From: a virus
IMG/VR virus record: IMGVR_UViG_3300025941_000068
Span: 1-33,715 of that record
Strand: one strand, 5' to 3'
DNA: 33,715 bases
The position numbers and the translations under genes are program-made. Below, one piece after another: positions 647 through 7,675 of the stretch; the stretch's first letter is position 1, and every line of letters starts with the position of its first letter. Under the pieces are notes generated by a model. That model did no database searches, was not told where the DNA came from, and saw nothing but the letters and a program-made list of their open reading frames with translations.

Positions 647-1008
647 GATTGGGTGCTGAGCAAATTATCCAGATACAGGTAGTAGAGTTTATTCGACAAA
701 CTACTGACATTCCTGTAATCCATATAGCAAATGAACGTCGTACAACCCCTCAACATGGCGCAATCCTAAAGCGTATGGGCGTACTTGCGGGCGTTAGCGA
801 CCTCTTCTTCCCCAGAAGCAATGGACGCTACCCAGGCATGTTTATGGAGCTTAAAGCCCCTAACGGAAAGCTATCTATAGCTCAGGCACAATTTTTATTA
901 GACAGAACGAATGACGGGTATTATTGTATTGTTTGTTACAACGCAGAAGATGCCATTAAAACTATCCAAGATTTTTATAATTTAGCACCATTAAAGTTAG
1001 TCGAATAG
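643..1008 (+). CDS. VRR-NUC domain nuclease
   Basis: A small PD-(D/E)XK-type nuclease of the VRR-NUC family, about 121 residues. The core is visible: an N-terminal Gln-rich helix, PVIHIANERR, then GVLAGVSDLFF (metal-binding Asp), then MFMELKAPNGKLS (the E-x-K catalytic pair), then A-Q-A-Q-F. Phage VRR-NUC proteins are thought to resolve branched DNA or act in recombination and packaging. The frame is open from a TTG at 613, but the TTG at 643 forms a TTGA overlap with the lysozyme stop and has an AGGCAGG ribosome site upstream, so 643 is preferred; a TTG at 649 is also possible. It converges with the helicase gene, overlapping 12 nt at the 3' ends. Confidence 0.8.
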   Translation: MRLGAEQIIQIQVVEFIRQTTDIPVIHIANERRTTPQHGAILKRMGVLAGVSDLFFPRSNGRYPGMFMELKAPNGKLSIAQAQFLLDRTNDGYYCIVCYNAEDAIKTIQDFYNLAPLKLVE

Positions 1009-2685
1009 CTTCTTGATTAACTTATAGGTTCCATCGGGGTTCATTGTAATGACAATCGAATGTGGTGTCTTAACGCCTTTTTCTAGCATCAGCTGCATTT
1101 GCTTGTAATCATGAAGCTTCATATACCATTCGCTGGGCTTATCAATATGGGTACGCACAAATTTTGCATAGCATACATTCTTTGATTTATCTGTATTTGT
1201 GAAATACAGCTCAGCGAAATTTGATTGTGAATCAGCGGCATAATATCGGCAGTTGATAATTGGAAATCCTCCTTTTTGTGCTGTTATCCAGTATTCTCCT
1301 CTAGATAGACGGACAATATTAGGCTTGTACAGCTTGGCATTTGGGTCAATTAACTCCGCATCACACGAACGACAATGGCGACTAGTAATATCATTTTGTG
1401 TCTCACAAACGTGGCAAGCTTTAAAATCAAAATAGAAAGAGCAACGTTTATTATCGTGAACACCCACGCAACGGCGAGCAGTAACCAAATTAAGAGTATT
1501 GCAGGTGTAGCAAGGAATAACAAAATCTTTTTCATTTTCTGGCCTTGGTTGAAGAGCTTCGTTAATAATTGGATCGTCTACATCCCCATGTCTATCTAAA
1601 TTGCCGGCAAAATCCAGAATAATCGCGGATAATTTGCCTGTATGAAGCCTAAGCACACGTCCGATTCCTTGTGTATATAGAACAAGAGATTCTGTTGGTC
1701 GCAGCCAAGCACATACATCAAAAGAAGGTATATCAATGCCGACTGTAAGCACATTAACATTAACCAAATAACGAATAACGCCCAATTTGGCGAGCTCAAT
1801 AATTTTTTTGCGTTCATCATGCGGCGTCTCTCCAGTTATTATGGCAGCCTGCCCTTCTGGTAAACTCTTTATGCATTCTAAACAGTGTTTGCGCGTAGAT
1901 GCAAAGATAAACGCTCCTGTATGCCCAGCTTCGACTATACGAGTGACTTCTCGCATTATCTCACCTGTTAGACGTTCATTGGCATCAACAATATTAGCTA
2001 ATTGTTTTTGGTCGAATTTGCCGGTATTCTTTACTCTGAGTTGGCTGAAATCGAAACTCTCTGTATCAGGGATGCCAAAAATGGGTTTTGTTAAATATCC
2101 ATTTTCGACCAGCCAGCTTGTGGAGATTGAACATGCTTTTTCTTTAAATAACTGTTCTGGACCGACAATTGAAATTCCCTTCCCACGATACGGTGTACCC
2201 GTTAGACCTATAAGTTTAAATTTATATTGCTCTATCTGAGCCTTCATAGAATAATGATTAATAATACGCATGTACATGGAGTTTGAATCATGTGGATTAA
2301 TATTATGGCACTCATCCGTAACTATCAGCTTAAATGGCTGCCTGCTGATATTGCCGTCATTACTGATATCTTTGCAAACGGAGTGTGGGGAAGCGAATAT
2401 TACAAATTGTTCGAAGTCTTTGGAATTGAGGCCAGCACAGTAAATGCCTGGATTTCCGCCCTGCAGCTTATACGTGTTGGCGTTTTGTTGTATCAAGGTG
2501 CTATTGAGCGTCAAGCACAGAGCGCGCCATCCGGCTTGCTCAATCATCAGCAAGATGTCAGCGATAATAAGTGATTTGCCACTACCCACCGAGGCATCGA
2601 CTAGGATTGGGTCATCTGATTCTCGGAGACATCTTTTTATTGTGTTAACTATAGTTTGCTGGTAAGGGCGCAGAATCTTGGTCAT
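997..2685 (-). CDS. radD: RadD-like superfamily 2 DNA helicase
   Basis: A 562-residue SF2 ATPase of the DECH type. Visible motifs are Walker A GSGKS (34-38), Walker B DECH (124-127), motif III-like LTGTPYRG (161-168), motif V region LTVGIDIP and motif VI QGIGRVLR (339-346). A C-terminal zinc region has cysteines at 392/395, 406/415, 424/427 and 438/441, ending in HCRSCDAELIDP. The order of motifs, the stretch around RYLVNVNVLTVG, LRPTES and LDFAGN, and the double zinc module match bacterial RadD (YejH), which is about 586 residues. Known for RadD: it binds SSB and aids RecA-dependent recombination. It is last in the leftward operon and overlaps the previous gene by ATGA. Assignment rests on layout, not a search. 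Confidence 0.82.
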   Translation of the reverse strand: MTKILRPYQQTIVNTIKRCLRESDDPILVDASVGSGKSLIIADILLMIEQAGWRALCLTLNSTLIQQNANTYKLQGGNPGIYCAGLNSKDFEQFVIFASPHSVCKDISNDGNISRQPFKLIVTDECHNINPHDSNSMYMRIINHYSMKAQIEQYKFKLIGLTGTPYRGKGISIVGPEQLFKEKACSISTSWLVENGYLTKPIFGIPDTESFDFSQLRVKNTGKFDQKQLANIVDANERLTGEIMREVTRIVEAGHTGAFIFASTRKHCLECIKSLPEGQAAIITGETPHDERKKIIELAKLGVIRYLVNVNVLTVGIDIPSFDVCAWLRPTESLVLYTQGIGRVLRLHTGKLSAIILDFAGNLDRHGDVDDPIINEALQPRPENEKDFVIPCYTCNTLNLVTARRCVGVHDNKRCSFYFDFKACHVCETQNDITSRHCRSCDAELIDPNAKLYKPNIVRLSRGEYWITAQKGGFPIINCRYYAADSQSNFAELYFTNTDKSKNVCYAKFVRTHIDKPSEWYMKLHDYKQMQLMLEKGVKTPHSIVITMNPDGTYKLIKKLFD

Positions 2686-3059
2686 TTGTTCTCTAAAGTC
2701 TTAATTGCCTTAGCGCATGTATCCATAACTTTTTTGGCCGCTTCTTGGGCTTCAGCAAAAGTAGCGACTCTTCTTTTTGCATGCAATTTTTCCCAAATCA
2801 ATTGAGCCTCAATAGCTTCTTCAACGGTGTCATAAATTCCAACATAATGAAGAACTTTTTTCATCCCCATGACGCGCTCTACAAGAGCCTTGTATTTTTC
2901 TTTGTCACCTAATTTGTATATATTTCTTGGTAGCTTACGGCCATCAGTTGTCACGCGATTGGGGGTCTTCTTTTTTTGAGCTCTTGCACCTGTAGATTCA
3001 GCCCAACTTAAGCGCGTATTAAGATAGTCATCCCAGAAATTAATTGGCTTCTTGGTCAT
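2682..3059 (-). CDS. Hypothetical protein, basic N-terminus
   Basis: 125 residues, not recognised. The first 50 residues are basic (KKPIN, RAQKKKTPNR, GRKLPRN). Then comes a segment VLHYVGIYDTVEEAIEAQLIWEKLHAKR, reminiscent of the AP2-type DNA-binding strand pattern of phage HNH-associated proteins (a G-x-F/Y-x-T-x-E-E-A-A-x-A pattern). The C-terminus is an alanine/lysine-rich helix. A DNA-binding role is therefore possible but unproven. It overlaps the 81-residue gene upstream by 20 nt and the helicase gene downstream by 4 nt, so it is translated as part of the recombination operon. Confidence 0.7.
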   Translation of the reverse strand: MTKKPINFWDDYLNTRLSWAESTGARAQKKKTPNRVTTDGRKLPRNIYKLGDKEKYKALVERVMGMKKVLHYVGIYDTVEEAIEAQLIWEKLHAKRRVATFAEAQEAAKKVMDTCAKAIKTLENK

Positions 3060-3285
3060 GTTGCGTGTAAATCTCCCTGTCCAAAGTAGCGACCTTGACT
3101 TTTAATTGCTCTATTTCAAATTCAGCTCGCCTTAAAGCTGCAGAATCAGCGACAACATCCTTAGCTTTTTGATATTGTTTATAAACCATTCTAAAATGGT
3201 AACGCATTATTAACATCAAGGAAGCGCCCCCACAGAAGCCTCCAATAAGACAGGTTAAAAACAAATCAACCTCATAACTGTCCAT
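3040..3285 (-). CDS. Small membrane protein with coiled coil
   Basis: 81 residues. Residues 7-27 (LFLTCLIGGFCGGASLMLIMR) form one transmembrane helix, followed by a charged coiled-coil stretch (QYQKAKDVV, LRRAEFEIEQLKVKVATLDRE). The start has a good ribosome site, AAAGGAG 7 nt before the ATG. The topology (N-terminal anchor, cytoplasmic or periplasmic coiled coil) resembles i-spanins, but the gene lies in the recombination operon and not beside the lysozyme, so a lysis role is only a guess. Function unknown. Confidence 0.7.
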   Translation of the reverse strand: MDSYEVDLFLTCLIGGFCGGASLMLIMRYHFRMVYKQYQKAKDVVADSAALRRAEFEIEQLKVKVATLDREIYTQHDQEAN

Positions 3286-3297
3286 GCATTTACTCCT

Positions 3298-3870
3298 TTA
3301 CCAAGGGATGTCTTGGTTGTCATATTTTGGAGGAACATCACTAATAGTAACTTTAGGAGTTTCACGCTTTATTCCAACTTCAGGTACAAAATTTGGCCCA
3401 ATTTCATGCACTTCAGTGATATTATTACCTGTCATAAATAAGGATTGGTCAGGCTTGGGGTTCTCACGTTTCATCGACCATTCCCCAATTTTAATACCCA
3501 TGTTTTTACCAACTAATGATGCATGGTCTTCGTCGGTAGGAACACCTGAATGTTTCGGAATATGCTTAGCTATTGTATAAATAAGTTTCAACATATTCAG
3601 TGCGCGTTGACATGTCACTGGCTTTTCATCGAACGCTTTAATCTTTTGGGTGATTTCACGGTTGCGGAATGGGCCGTCCGTTATTTTCCATACAATCTCA
3701 TATTGATCAATATCCTTGCCAGCTATATTTTTGGAAACTAGCTTGAAGGATTTGATTCTTGCTATGGCGGTGGTGTTGTGTGGAATATTTTCAAATTCAG
3801 GCAACAATACATCTTGAAGCATTCCAGTAATTGTTTGCCCTTCTATCCTGCTTTCCCAAAAATTTGTCAT
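3298..3870 (-). CDS. SSB-like phage protein with SSB-type C-terminal tail
   Basis: 190 residues. The N-terminal 120 residues contain beta-rich segments (IARIKSFKLVSKNIAGKDIDQYEIVWKI, then GPFRNREITQKIKAF) like the phage single-strand-binding families that accompany annealing proteins. The C-terminus is disordered and ends KYDNQDIPW. That matches the acidic-plus-hydrophobic tail of bacterial SSB (DDDIPF), which docks SSB partner proteins. The gene follows the Sak4-like gene with a TAATG overlap. Known: Sak4 of the related phage HK620 works with a cognate SSB. Inference: this is that partner, and the tail may recruit the RadD-like helicase three genes downstream. The fold itself is not proven from sequence reading. 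Confidence 0.66.
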   Translation of the reverse strand: MTNFWESRIEGQTITGMLQDVLLPEFENIPHNTTAIARIKSFKLVSKNIAGKDIDQYEIVWKITDGPFRNREITQKIKAFDEKPVTCQRALNMLKLIYTIAKHIPKHSGVPTDEDHASLVGKNMGIKIGEWSMKRENPKPDQSLFMTGNNITEVHEIGPNFVPEVGIKRETPKVTISDVPPKYDNQDIPW

Positions 3871-4520
3871 TACTCATCCCCGTTAAAATATTCAATCATC
3901 CGCTCGCGGACAAATTGAAGGTCGTTGTCAATATACATGTCAGCAAACATGTCTATACTTGTTTTAGCCATATGGAGGCCGTCGAATTGCGTGAGAAACC
4001 TAAACTTACCCTCTACTACCCTTGCGTGTAAAACTGTGCTAATTCTTCCCTCAATAGATACTTTATCATCAACCATCTTACCAACTGTCTTAGTTTTGAT
4101 AACCCCGGCATGGCTAAGCTCAGTGTGAGACATAATAAAACAAATCAAGTCTTCACGAAGAAGCTTAAGTTCTTCTACAATTTCAAAAGTGTGCTTACCA
4201 ATATCTACAAAACGCTCAAAAGATTTTTCACTTGCTCGATGCATAAACTCGTTAGCTAATACAAAGTTAAAATCATCAATTATCAAATTCTTAATGTTCG
4301 GCAACCGTTCATTAATAGCTTTGATATACGAAATGATTTCTTTATAACAGTCAGTCGAGTGATAGTTTTTTAATTCTTTGTTGTATTTGTTTTTGTAGCC
4401 CTTGAATGGCAATGGCTTGTTCAGTACATTAATTATAAATGTTTCTTCTGGGTTTAATGTGCGGATGCTGGTTGATTTTCCAGTTCCTGATTCGCCTAAA
4501 ATTAATACAATATTACTCAT
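3870..4520 (-). CDS. Sak4-like recombination ATPase (AAA_24 family)
   Basis: 216 residues from the ATG at 4520; a TTG two codons earlier is less likely because GGAG lies 7 nt before the ATG. Walker A is GESGTGKST (9-17) and Walker B is NLIIDDFNF. The central LLREDLICFIMSHTE is typical of the phage nucleotide-binding (AAA_24/Sak4) group, RecA-like core proteins that anneal single strands. It is single-domain and short, as usual for Sak4. It sits between a coiled-coil protein and the SSB-like gene, supporting a recombination module. A generic phage ATP-binding protein is the fallback reading. Confidence 0.75.
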   Translation of the reverse strand: MSNIVLILGESGTGKSTSIRTLNPEETFIINVLNKPLPFKGYKNKYNKELKNYHSTDCYKEIISYIKAINERLPNIKNLIIDDFNFVLANEFMHRASEKSFERFVDIGKHTFEIVEELKLLREDLICFIMSHTELSHAGVIKTKTVGKMVDDKVSIEGRISTVLHARVVEGKFRFLTQFDGLHMAKTSIDMFADMYIDNDLQFVRERMIEYFNGDE

Positions 4521-4522
4521 TT

Positions 4523-4951
4523 TCAAACTCCAGGCGAGACCTTCACGTGTAATTTAGACGGCTTCGCAGTAACAAACTTCCTCATAAGTTCCTTTTCTTC
4601 TTCAGAGCCATATTTTTCACAAGCCTTTATAATGTTTTTGTTCAGTTCGAACTTTTTAACTTCGGTGACTGGGTTAAAGCCTTTAGGAAGGAAGTGCCCA
4701 ATAGTTTTGTATTCATCAATATCTAAATTATATATATATCCACTTTTTACAGTCACTTTCCAGCGACCATAAGTATACGTTTTTTGGCAATCATCACTAT
4801 GCTCAAGCAATGCATTTAATCTTTTCTCAAGCTCTTCTTTTATTCTTAATAATTCAGCAACTTGTAAACTAATTGTGTGCAATGTTAATGCTGTTTCCTG
4901 TATTCTTTCTTCGCGTAGGACTTGAGGATTGGGTTCTGGGAAATCGTTCAT
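4523..4951 (-). CDS. Hypothetical coiled-coil protein at head of the leftward operon
   Basis: 142 residues, not recognised. Residues 13-50 form a strong predicted coiled coil (ALTLHTISLQVAELLRIKEEL and onward), followed by a beta-rich section, YGRWKVTVKSGYIYNLD, and a conserved-looking KPSKLHVKVSPG end. It is the first gene of the operon that goes on to Sak4, SSB-like and RadD-like genes, so a role in recombination or replication is likely by context only. The ATG has little Shine-Dalgarno. It faces the Cro-like gene across a 106-nt control region. Confidence 0.72.
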   Translation of the reverse strand: MNDFPEPNPQVLREERIQETALTLHTISLQVAELLRIKEELEKRLNALLEHSDDCQKTYTYGRWKVTVKSGYIYNLDIDEYKTIGHFLPKGFNPVTEVKKFELNKNIIKACEKYGSEEEKELMRKFVTAKPSKLHVKVSPGV

Positions 4952-6157: not shown

Positions 6158-7000
6158 ATGAGCATAGAAGCGATCAACTGGGTATTGGAGATACAAGAGT
6201 TATTACCATCTGAAAAATTTGTATTGCTTGCGTTAGCCAATAGAGCCAATGACAAGCATCATGCGTGGCCATCATGGACGCGACTAATGAAAGACACATG
6301 TCTAAGTAGAAAATCTATTTATAGAATTTTAGACTCTCTTATTCGCAAAGGATATTTAATCAAAACAGGCGACACTATTCGGCAAGTAAATGTTTACAAA
6401 ATATGCGGCGTCTTGTCAAAAGAAAATTTAACCAAATTAAAATCTACCAATAAAAAGTTATCCACAACCAGTGTCACCATGACACTAGTGTCACTAAGAA
6501 ACCAGTGTCACCATGACACGGGTACTAGTGTCACCATGACACCCCCACCCGTGTCACCACGACACCTAGAACCATTAATTGAATCCAAAAAGGAATCATC
6601 AGGGAAAAATTCGATTTTTTTAAACACTAAAACCCAAATTCAAAACCAGTTAACAAAGAGCGGTATCGAGCCAATTGAAGATATCGTGGCACAAATGGCA
6701 TACTACGTTGATTCAAAGCCAAGCCAACCCCAAGATCAAACCATACGCGTAGCGGTGAGCAAATACAGAAAAGGCCAATGGAGAACACCTCATGGATATA
6801 ACGGGATTACATCTAAATCAATTGCTGAAAAAGAAAAGGCTTATGAAGAAGAAAAAAAGATAATGTATAAACAAGAAGCTGAAGCTTATAAAAATATTGT
6901 GAAAGAGGCCAGCAACAGAGAAGTAGCTAAAGGCCATTTAGCAGAATTAATGAAATTTTTAAAGCCTACTTATTTAAAAACCGGAGAAAATTGTGAGTGA
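6158..7000 (+). CDS. Replication initiator with winged HTH (phage O-like)
   Basis: 280 residues. Residues 14-72 are a helix-turn-helix of the HTH_36 type (PSEKFVLLALANRAND, AWPSWTRLMKDTCLSRKSI, IRKGYLIKTG), the standard DNA-binding domain of phage replication proteins. Residues about 100-140 are a Thr/Ser/Pro-rich linker whose DNA carries the iterons and DnaA box. The C-terminal part (IEDIVAQMAYYVDSKP, VAVSKYRKGQWRTPHGYNG, then a charged helix) is the probable helicase- or loader-contact region. The arrangement of an origin inside the initiator gene is that of lambda O. No DnaB-type helicase or loader is seen in the window, so host helicase or a gene outside is needed. Its end overlaps the next gene by 8 nt. 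Confidence 0.82.
   Translation: MSIEAINWVLEIQELLPSEKFVLLALANRANDKHHAWPSWTRLMKDTCLSRKSIYRILDSLIRKGYLIKTGDTIRQVNVYKICGVLSKENLTKLKSTNKKLSTTSVTMTLVSLRNQCHHDTGTSVTMTPPPVSPRHLEPLIESKKESSGKNSIFLNTKTQIQNQLTKSGIEPIEDIVAQMAYYVDSKPSQPQDQTIRVAVSKYRKGQWRTPHGYNGITSKSIAEKEKAYEEEKKIMYKQEAEAYKNIVKEASNREVAKGHLAELMKFLKPTYLKTGENCE
6458..6466 (+). promoter_or_regulatory. DnaA box
   Basis: TTATCCACA is an exact match to the consensus DnaA box. It lies 4 nt before the first iteron, inside the initiator coding sequence. Chance occurrence of one exact 9-mer in 34 kb is not negligible, but the position makes function likely. Confidence 0.65.
6471..6565 (+). repeat. Iterons, palindromic GTGTCA-N3-TGACAC array
   Basis: Three exact copies of the palindrome GTGTCACCATGACAC lie at 6471-6485, 6505-6519 and 6528-6542. 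A fourth copy has one change (GTGTCACCACGACAC, 6551-6565), and a half-site GTGTCACT lies at 6488-6495. Start-to-start spacing is 17, 17, 23 and 23 nt. The copies fall in different codon contexts of the host gene, so the repeat is selected as DNA and not as peptide. Expected ligand: the initiator encoded by the same gene. Confidence 0.9.
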
Positions 7001-7232
7001 AGAATTAGAAAATACCAGGAAAAATTTGCAAAATGAAATAATAAATTATTATTCTCAGCTTGCTATTTTTAAACAACTCTTGGCTAGAAAAATAAATCAA
7101 ATTGAAATAAATCAAGAAGCCACTTTAATCAAAACAATGATGCAGTTAAGTGATATTCAGATTGAATTGAAAATAATGCAGTCTTACGCTCAGTGTATTT
7201 GTAGTTTATCTGAACATTTAGCCGATGAATAA
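6993..7232 (+). CDS. Hypothetical coiled-coil protein
   Basis: 79 residues from a GTG at 6993, with GGAG 6 nt upstream; it overlaps the initiator stop. It is almost wholly helical with heptad-like spacing (LENTRKNLQNEIINYYSQL, LARKINQIEINQE). Not recognised. Position right after the initiator suggests a replication accessory role, but a helicase loader would be much longer and carry a P-loop, which is absent. Confidence 0.6.
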   Translation: MSEELENTRKNLQNEIINYYSQLAIFKQLLARKINQIEINQEATLIKTMMQLSDIQIELKIMQSYAQCICSLSEHLADE

Positions 7233-7443
7233 GCTAACAGAGCAACAATGCAAATCAATTTTATTCAAATTAGGCATAAAATACGGAATAAGCCCTAGGA
7301 AGCTCTCAGAGCAACTTTTGTCTCAAGATGATAAGAACGATATGCTTGAGGGTAGAACGTCGCTAGAAACGCTTAATTTGCACGTTAAACTGTGGATAGA
7401 GCAGGGTTGTCCAGATTTAGTTAACATTAAAGGGAAAAATTAA
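7225..7443 (+). CDS. Hypothetical protein, possible small HTH
   Basis: 72 residues, ATG overlapping the previous stop by 8 nt. The segment SILFKLGIKYGISPRKLSEQLLSQDDK has the look of a helix-turn-helix with a G-I-S turn, and a following helix LETLNLHVKLWIEQG. Not recognised as any named family. It ends 1 nt before the cold-shock gene and is probably co-transcribed with it. Confidence 0.6.
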   Translation: MNKLTEQQCKSILFKLGIKYGISPRKLSEQLLSQDDKNDMLEGRTSLETLNLHVKLWIEQGCPDLVNIKGKN

Positions 7444-7444
7444 G

Positions 7445-7675
7445 ATGAGTGAAAACACAGTTATTGGGACTACGAAATGGTTTAATAATGACAAAGGCTA
7501 TGGATTCATAACCTACAATGAAAAGGACTTCTTCGTCTATTACAGCGACATTATAGGCGAAGGATACAAAACCCTTGACGAAGGCCAGAAAGTTAAATTT
7601 GTGCCTTCCCAGGGGGCTAGAGGAGGGATTGCTAAGGATGTGGAGGCTCTCTCAATGACTTCTGGTAATCGATGA
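7445..7675 (+). CDS. Cold-shock domain protein (CspA family)
   Basis: 76 residues, one cold-shock domain and little else, the usual length. The nucleic-acid-binding motifs are visible: KWFNNDKGYGFI (11-22, RNP1) and DFFVYYSDI (28-36, RNP2, usually VFVHFSAI). The basic G-A-R-G-G stretch before the last strand replaces the usual G-P-Q-A. Family role: binds single-stranded RNA or DNA, melts mRNA structure or prevents termination. It is the last gene of the rightward early operon and its 3' end overlaps csrA by 44 nt on the opposite strand. Confidence 0.88.
   Translation: MSENTVIGTTKWFNNDKGYGFITYNEKDFFVYYSDIIGEGYKTLDEGQKVKFVPSQGARGGIAKDVEALSMTSGNR

Follow-up and report, generated by a model that had tools for sequence, protein, structure and literature searches.

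The viral genome analyzed here very probably carries, to judge from sequence comparison, a replication origin of the lambda type inside the gene for its own initiator protein. The window, by which we mean the entire stretch of 33,715 bases, is a whole virus record with a P22-type portal. A first-pass annotation of this DNA had proposed that an origin composed of palindromic sites lies within an HTH initiator gene, and this core idea is well supported by a comparison across relatives. We favor the origin reading because of the sites themselves, their conservation at the DNA level across distant phages, the link between the recognition helix of the protein and the repeats, the AT-rich element 3' of the array and a natural chimera found in Edwardsiella phage GF-2. 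The gene and its elements are as follows:

6158 to 7000, plus strand: initiator gene, 280 aa, with an N-terminal HTH_36, a disordered linker and a C-terminal helical region
6197 to 6358, plus strand: HTH_36 domain, aa 14-67 (Pfam match)
6305 to 6349, plus strand: recognition helix with N-cap S50, aa 50-64 (helix 51-64 in the AlphaFold2 model)
6458 to 6466, plus strand: perfect DnaA box TTATCCACA, starting 13 nt before the first iteron
6471 to 6485, plus strand: iteron 1, exact GTGTCACCATGACAC, reads SVTMT
6488 to 6502, plus strand: degenerate half-site GTGTCACTAAGAAAC, two arm mismatches
6505 to 6519, plus strand: iteron 2, exact GTGTCACCATGACAC, reads CHHDT
6528 to 6542, plus strand: iteron 3, exact GTGTCACCATGACAC, reads SVTMT
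6551 to 6565, plus strand: iteron 4, one change, GTGTCACCACGACAC, reads VSPRH (T>C, an in-frame TGA being avoided)
6566 to 6645, plus strand: AT-rich stretch, candidate DNA unwinding element, local AT 0.70-0.75
6626 to 6961, plus strand: C-terminal helical region (helices 157-268 in the AlphaFold2 model)

The DnaA box, the three exact and one near-exact iterons and the half-site in the linker of the HTH initiator were all confirmed where they had first been reported. The iteron unit is a 6+3+6 inverted repeat, GTGTCA-N3-TGACAC; the sites initially called palindromes are thus real inverted repeats, but their centre is non-palindromic and none is a perfect palindrome. The DnaA box at 6458 is the sole perfect copy within the window, and no further copy of the iteron with up to one mismatch was found in the whole record. 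When two mismatches are tolerated there are five matches, all of them the five units listed above, versus 1.0 expected from shuffling of the 33.7 kb, and three exact 15-mers in a span of 72 nt greatly exceed what chance would produce. The starts of the five units are indeed 17, 17, 23 and 23 nt apart, but the two spacing classes that had been read from these values do not stand. The nearest relatives, L052 and L049, preserve the 34-23 spacing of their full sites but not the half-site at 6488, without which the intervals in the window become 34, 23 and 23. This half-site is probably a decayed iteron, and a separate 17-nt spacing class was rejected in favor of one decayed site inside a 34-nt interval.

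The initiator protein matches PF13730 (HTH_36) with E=1.3e-14 and 54 bits, the cut-off being 25, and PHROG 6643/1032 (“replication initiation”) with E of about 2e-21, in the latter case with a coverage of about aa 1-160 only; its N-terminal HTH_36 domain and its PHROG initiator match together place it among the HTH_36, O-like phage initiators. The AlphaFold2 model has a mean pLDDT of 76. It is confident for residues 1-70 (94-97) and for about 155-210, and the iteron-coded linker, about residues 100-150, is predicted to be disordered (about 50). No Pfam family above cut-off and no characterized helicase-recruiting domain was matched in the C-terminal region, which is a candidate for the part that would recruit a helicase or a loader. 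The fold neighbors of the model include the Rep-DNA complex 5kbj (plasmid) and the initiator 4pt7, with a weak E of about 0.015, and among viral models they include the O protein of phage Min27. The first two are a likeness, in the winged-helix fold, to the RepA_N initiators; that plasmid family of low-GC Gram-positives has, however, no significant sequence match in the window, and RepA_N is absent among the Pfam matches of the initiator up to E=1, which places the protein outside it. A scan for relatives with the single protein found none, and relatives were gathered via DNA patterns and tblastn.

The association of such repeats with initiator genes is recovered when the protein is ignored. 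When IMG/VR was searched at the DNA level alone for pairs of GTGTCANNNTGACAC separated by 2-30 nt, 60 viral stretches matched; in 51 of them the pair falls within an ORF that encodes an HTH_36-type domain, directly 3' of that domain. In three further matches the sites come 9-94 nt after an HTH_36-type ORF, and in two others (L033 and L034) they lie in other HTH genes that resemble initiators. The control scan with the same letters reversed (ACTGTGNNNCACAGT) gave no matches. The same pattern was matched by 62 stretches in GTDB genomes, of which 33 belong to tandem arrays of 41-bp units in Alicyclobacillus and a single Bacillota bin; 17 of the remaining 29 are HTH_36-type ORFs from many phyla, the organisms including Novosphingobium, Corynebacterium, Actinomyces, Synergistaceae, Polyangia and Kiritimatiellia. 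The tandem arrays of Alicyclobacillus sp. ALC3 (L065-L123) and of the Bacillota bin YS1 (L074, L076, L110) hold GTGTCA-N3-TGACAC within TAGGTGTCAAATTGACACTTA and occur in hundreds of copies, chromosome-wide and apparently outside such initiator genes. Two further DNA-only scans, for GTGACANNNTGTCAC twice and for TCCCNAAANNGGGA twice, also reach HTH_36-type genes (25/46 and 74/120, respectively). In the opposite direction, 20 relatives were chosen by protein similarity alone and then searched for repeats, and most of them carry, in the corresponding linker, palindromic or repeated units of their own. The arms in relatives differ, and include TCCCAAAA..GGGA, GTGACA..TGTCAC, TGCCA..TGGCA and AGGTCA..TGACCT.

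Several observations indicate that these repeats are maintained as DNA. In 42 non-redundant families, exact iterons are found in two reading frames, with 62 and 45 copies. In the third frame an exact copy would read TGA, and the iterons there always have one change, which in 15 of 16 copies falls on T10, next to the spacer, and not on a more distal base; the window copy at 6551 (CCACGACAC) is of this third-frame type, with CGA instead of TGA. A Fisher test on the avoidance of TGA in frame 0 was set aside as circular, since an exact frame-0 copy would end the ORF. On the sequences compared, the occurrence of frame-0 copies at regular spacing, and at the cost of one base, is evidence pointing to selection at the DNA level. 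The iterons encode different peptides in different frames, even within one gene. Between the window and L052, which are 61% identical over the full length, synonymous changes are seen in 1/18 iteron codons versus 56/138 other codons (p=0.003). The spacing in the family is dominated by 22-23 nt, followed by 33-34 and 44-45 nt, values consistent with an arrangement along one helical face, and the 34-23-23 spacing of the window is identical in L052. The initial claim that the repeats are out of register with the codons, so that selection acts on DNA, is thus borne out by the use of several frames and by the suppression of synonymous change in the iterons, and the comparison of homologous genes that had been proposed as a check finds the DNA repeats kept while the frame and the sequence of the peptide vary.

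These results bear directly on the contrary idea that the repeats are selected as protein, with Thr/Pro-rich linker peptides that perhaps bind a partner and with the DNA repeats as a by-product of duplication. The peptides VTMTP and CHHDT do recur, and in some phages (L127) the repeat unit comprises a whole number of codons, as such an explanation would have it. Copies within one gene, however, lie in different frames and yield different peptides, their synonymous sites are conserved, the linker that holds them is predicted to be disordered, and the GTGTCA arms persist across phyla whereas the encoded peptide varies; we give selection for the peptide almost no chance of being correct.

The class of iteron goes with the residues of the recognition helix. 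In the GTGTCA-class families S50 is present in 41/43 and R56 in 43/43, and R52, found in 12 of these 43, occurs in all 20 GTGACA families (p=2e-8). The TCCC families have D or N at position 50 (10/11) and K52 (11/11), and R56 is mostly absent from them; the combination of S50 and R56 is thus found in 59/63 of the GTGTCA and GTGACA families taken together versus 0/11 of the TCCC class. Assignment to the nearest neighbor by helix residues separates GTGTCA from GTGACA correctly in 53/63 families, versus 40/63 by the rest of the domain, which is below the majority guess of 43; the tree of this short domain is poorly resolved, so that the association is given without phylogenetic correction and its independence rests on this comparison of the helix with the rest. 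Independent pairs based on the tree were dropped, the support for the tree being too weak. Sequence comparison thus points to a strong association between helix and iteron, as would be expected of an HTH domain that recognizes the iterons of its own gene. An alternative in which the array is some other phage DNA site, for example one for partition or packaging or a recombination enhancer, bound by a different protein, does not account for this association, in which the helix is encoded by the gene containing the sites, nor for the unwinding-type element on their 3' side. Palindromic arrays do occur in such sites, and the 41-bp arrays of Alicyclobacillus share the same core and apparently are not in such genes; we nevertheless regard this alternative as very improbable.

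The AT-rich flanks reported initially are real in the window, where AT is high on both sides of the array, but across the family they are consistent on the 3' side only: the 40 nt that follow the last iteron show a rise in AT of 12.5 +/- 1.5 points, versus about 3 points on the 5' side of the first. The rise is largely synonymous, with third codon positions 3' of the iterons gaining 19 points of AT over 60 nt (p=3e-9) and positions one and two gaining 5. In lambda the 40 nt after iteron 4 are 77.5% AT, and the AT of third positions is 75% versus 48% for gene O. Both systems hence have a synonymous AT-rich stretch of the same polarity, directly 3' of the iterons, which is a feature of the lambda-type, self-encoded origin.

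The other likeness to lambda is that multiple initiator-type palindromic repeats, about 20-24 nt apart and read in several frames, occupy the linker portion of the initiator gene. The lambda iterons, 18-bp inverted repeats inside gene O, are spaced 20, 24 and 23 and occupy all three frames; the view that full palindromes and mixed spacing would be unusual must consequently be given up. In lambda the iterons are bound by O dimers and a 40-bp AT-rich region opens (PMC5043065). There are also clear differences. Lambda O is a PF04492 protein (Phage_rep_O, E=6e-36) and not an HTH_36 protein, the window protein has no match to PF04492, and BLASTP found no similarity between the two. The iteron arms are ATCCC in lambda and GTGTCA in the window. 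The O-like, P-binding C-terminal domain is absent from the window protein and present in GF-2, and the window, unlike lambda, has no P gene next door.

Phage GF-2 provides what is, on homology, the best functional evidence for the origin reading. Its protein has an HTH_36 domain, its own iterons ATCCCAAAATTGGGAT and then a lambda O-type C-terminal domain, which is 62% identical to that of lambda O over 144 aa, and a P homologue lies downstream. This chimera implies that an HTH_36 cassette took the place of the DNA-binding domain of lambda O and its iterons, with retention of the portion that interacts with P. A natural chimera of HTH_36 domain, iterons and lambda O C-terminal domain is seen at 1501-2340 of L132, and also in L215, L256 and L302. 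Known HTH_36, O-like initiators (PHROG 391/1032/6643; Edwardsiella GF-2, Acinetobacter AB1, phiV10, mEp010) resemble the window protein in their N-terminal domain and linker iterons, mEp010 with an exact GTGTCA site, but mostly differ in iteron class and recognition helix, and in several of them a helicase or P gene follows immediately.

The same chimera, in which this domain and these repeats are fused to the C-terminus of lambda O, is difficult to reconcile with the repeats being an operator at which the HTH protein represses or tunes its own transcription while replication starts elsewhere. HTH_36 does resemble the DNA-binding domains of transcription factors, and a protein bound within a gene can obstruct elongation. 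The motif, however, has no copy near the promoter of the gene or elsewhere in the record, a synonymous AT-rich element directly follows the iterons, and helicase or P-like genes adjoin in relatives. An operator alone is therefore improbable in our view, although autoregulation and origin function could coexist.

A further difference from lambda, in which no perfect DnaA box occurs within 2.1 kb around O, is the perfect box that abuts this array. It had been described as mixing phage and plasmid designs, and of that description the box has proved real and recurrent, a genuine minority variant, whereas the palindromes and their spacing are not unusual. Of the 42 GTGTCA families, 7 have a perfect TTATCCACA no more than 200 nt from their iterons, versus 0.11 expected from dinucleotide shuffling. 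It is also the commonest of 1680 permutations of the same letters across 74 zones of the three classes, with occurrences in 8 zones (mean 0.20, next highest 4). A start offset of -13 is common to the window, L052 and the unrelated L037. In L037, whose gene is on the minus strand, three perfect DnaA boxes lie within 44 nt upstream of the first iteron. The window shares with DnaA-dependent iteron origins a DnaA box that is placed at the putative origin and retained in relatives.

Many relatives have a replicative helicase or a P-like gene next door. In a post hoc, detection-dependent comparison, the 3 kb downstream contained a recognizable helicase, loader or P-like gene at 26/55 box-free loci (those with 1 kb or more of sequence) versus 0/7 box loci (p=0.035), the window and L049 being related members of the seven. 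No phage helicase (DnaB-type) or loader gene was detected adjoining the window initiator. Directly 3' of it, at 6993-7443 on the plus strand, are two small genes of unknown family (79 and 72 aa), which overlap by a few bases in an operon-like manner and occupy the position of the helicase or loader in other phages; the 79-aa product matched no Pfam family. They are followed by a cold-shock domain protein (7445-7675, plus strand; PF00313, E=4e-19). A leftward cluster at 997-4951, on the minus strand, encodes a RadD-like helicase, an SSB-type protein and a Sak4-like annealing protein, and the GC skew changes sign near 5 kb, but the gene orientation changes there too, so that the skew does not decide where replication starts. 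From these comparisons a role of DnaA at the box-bearing origins is possible, but we hold it tentatively and at somewhat less than even chances.

The following course of events may be envisaged. Dimers of the HTH_36 initiator would bind the four GTGTCA-N3-TGACAC iterons, which at intervals of 34, 23 and 23 would be disposed roughly on one face of the helix, so that the array could wrap the DNA. The AT-rich stretch just 3' of the array would then melt and the C-terminal region of the initiator would bring in the host replicative helicase, the loading of which might be helped by host DnaA on the adjoining box.

Parts of such an arrangement are already known, both as in-gene palindromic iterons (lambda) and as origins inside rep or replisome-organizer genes (pSK41, SPP1). 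In the RepA_N plasmid pSK41 the Rep boxes are central in the rep gene and the peptide that they encode is a dispensable linker; no DnaA boxes were detected in the staphylococcal plasmids (PMC5703833). The origin repeats and the AT-rich element of SPP1 oriL lie inside the gene of the replisome organizer gp38 (PMC6316719), but in that case the repeats are direct and the phage encodes its loader (gp39) and helicase (gp40). P1 oriL lies in the initiator gene repL and has DnaA boxes, both of them dispensable in the assay used (PMC9948254); in contrast to the window, no iterons are described there. Iterons adjoin a DnaA box in iteron plasmids such as P1 oriR and pMOS7, the latter a Paracoccus plasmid with the same TTATCCACA as the window (PMC3832669), but in such plasmids the iterons, for the most part direct repeats, are located outside the rep gene and are bound by initiator monomers (PMC5043065). 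Repeats have been noted in an O-like gene of Pseudomonas phage MD8 (PMC8508860), and in the case of mycobacteriophage RepA an origin was suspected upstream of or inside the gene and no repeats were found (PMC7157519). In an incomplete coverage of the literature, we found no paper on the GTGTCA class, its spread over phyla, its association with the helix or the adjoining DnaA box.

Most phage origins are unmapped. HTH_36 initiators with linker iterons might constitute widespread, modular and self-encoded origins, in which a few helix residues set the iteron and in which host DnaA, recruited via a box next to the iterons, replaces lambda P in phages that lack a helicase or loader of their own, the present one included; taken as a whole, this generalization is one that we would sooner doubt than accept. 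If the origin reading holds, wherever a phage has an initiator of this kind its origin could be read from the linker of a single gene, and its iteron class would be predictable from a few residues of the helix. These genes would provide a natural data set for protein-DNA recognition, and the replacement of the phage helicase loader by host DnaA would become testable. The single textbook case of lambda would then become a class, with many natural variants in many bacterial phyla.
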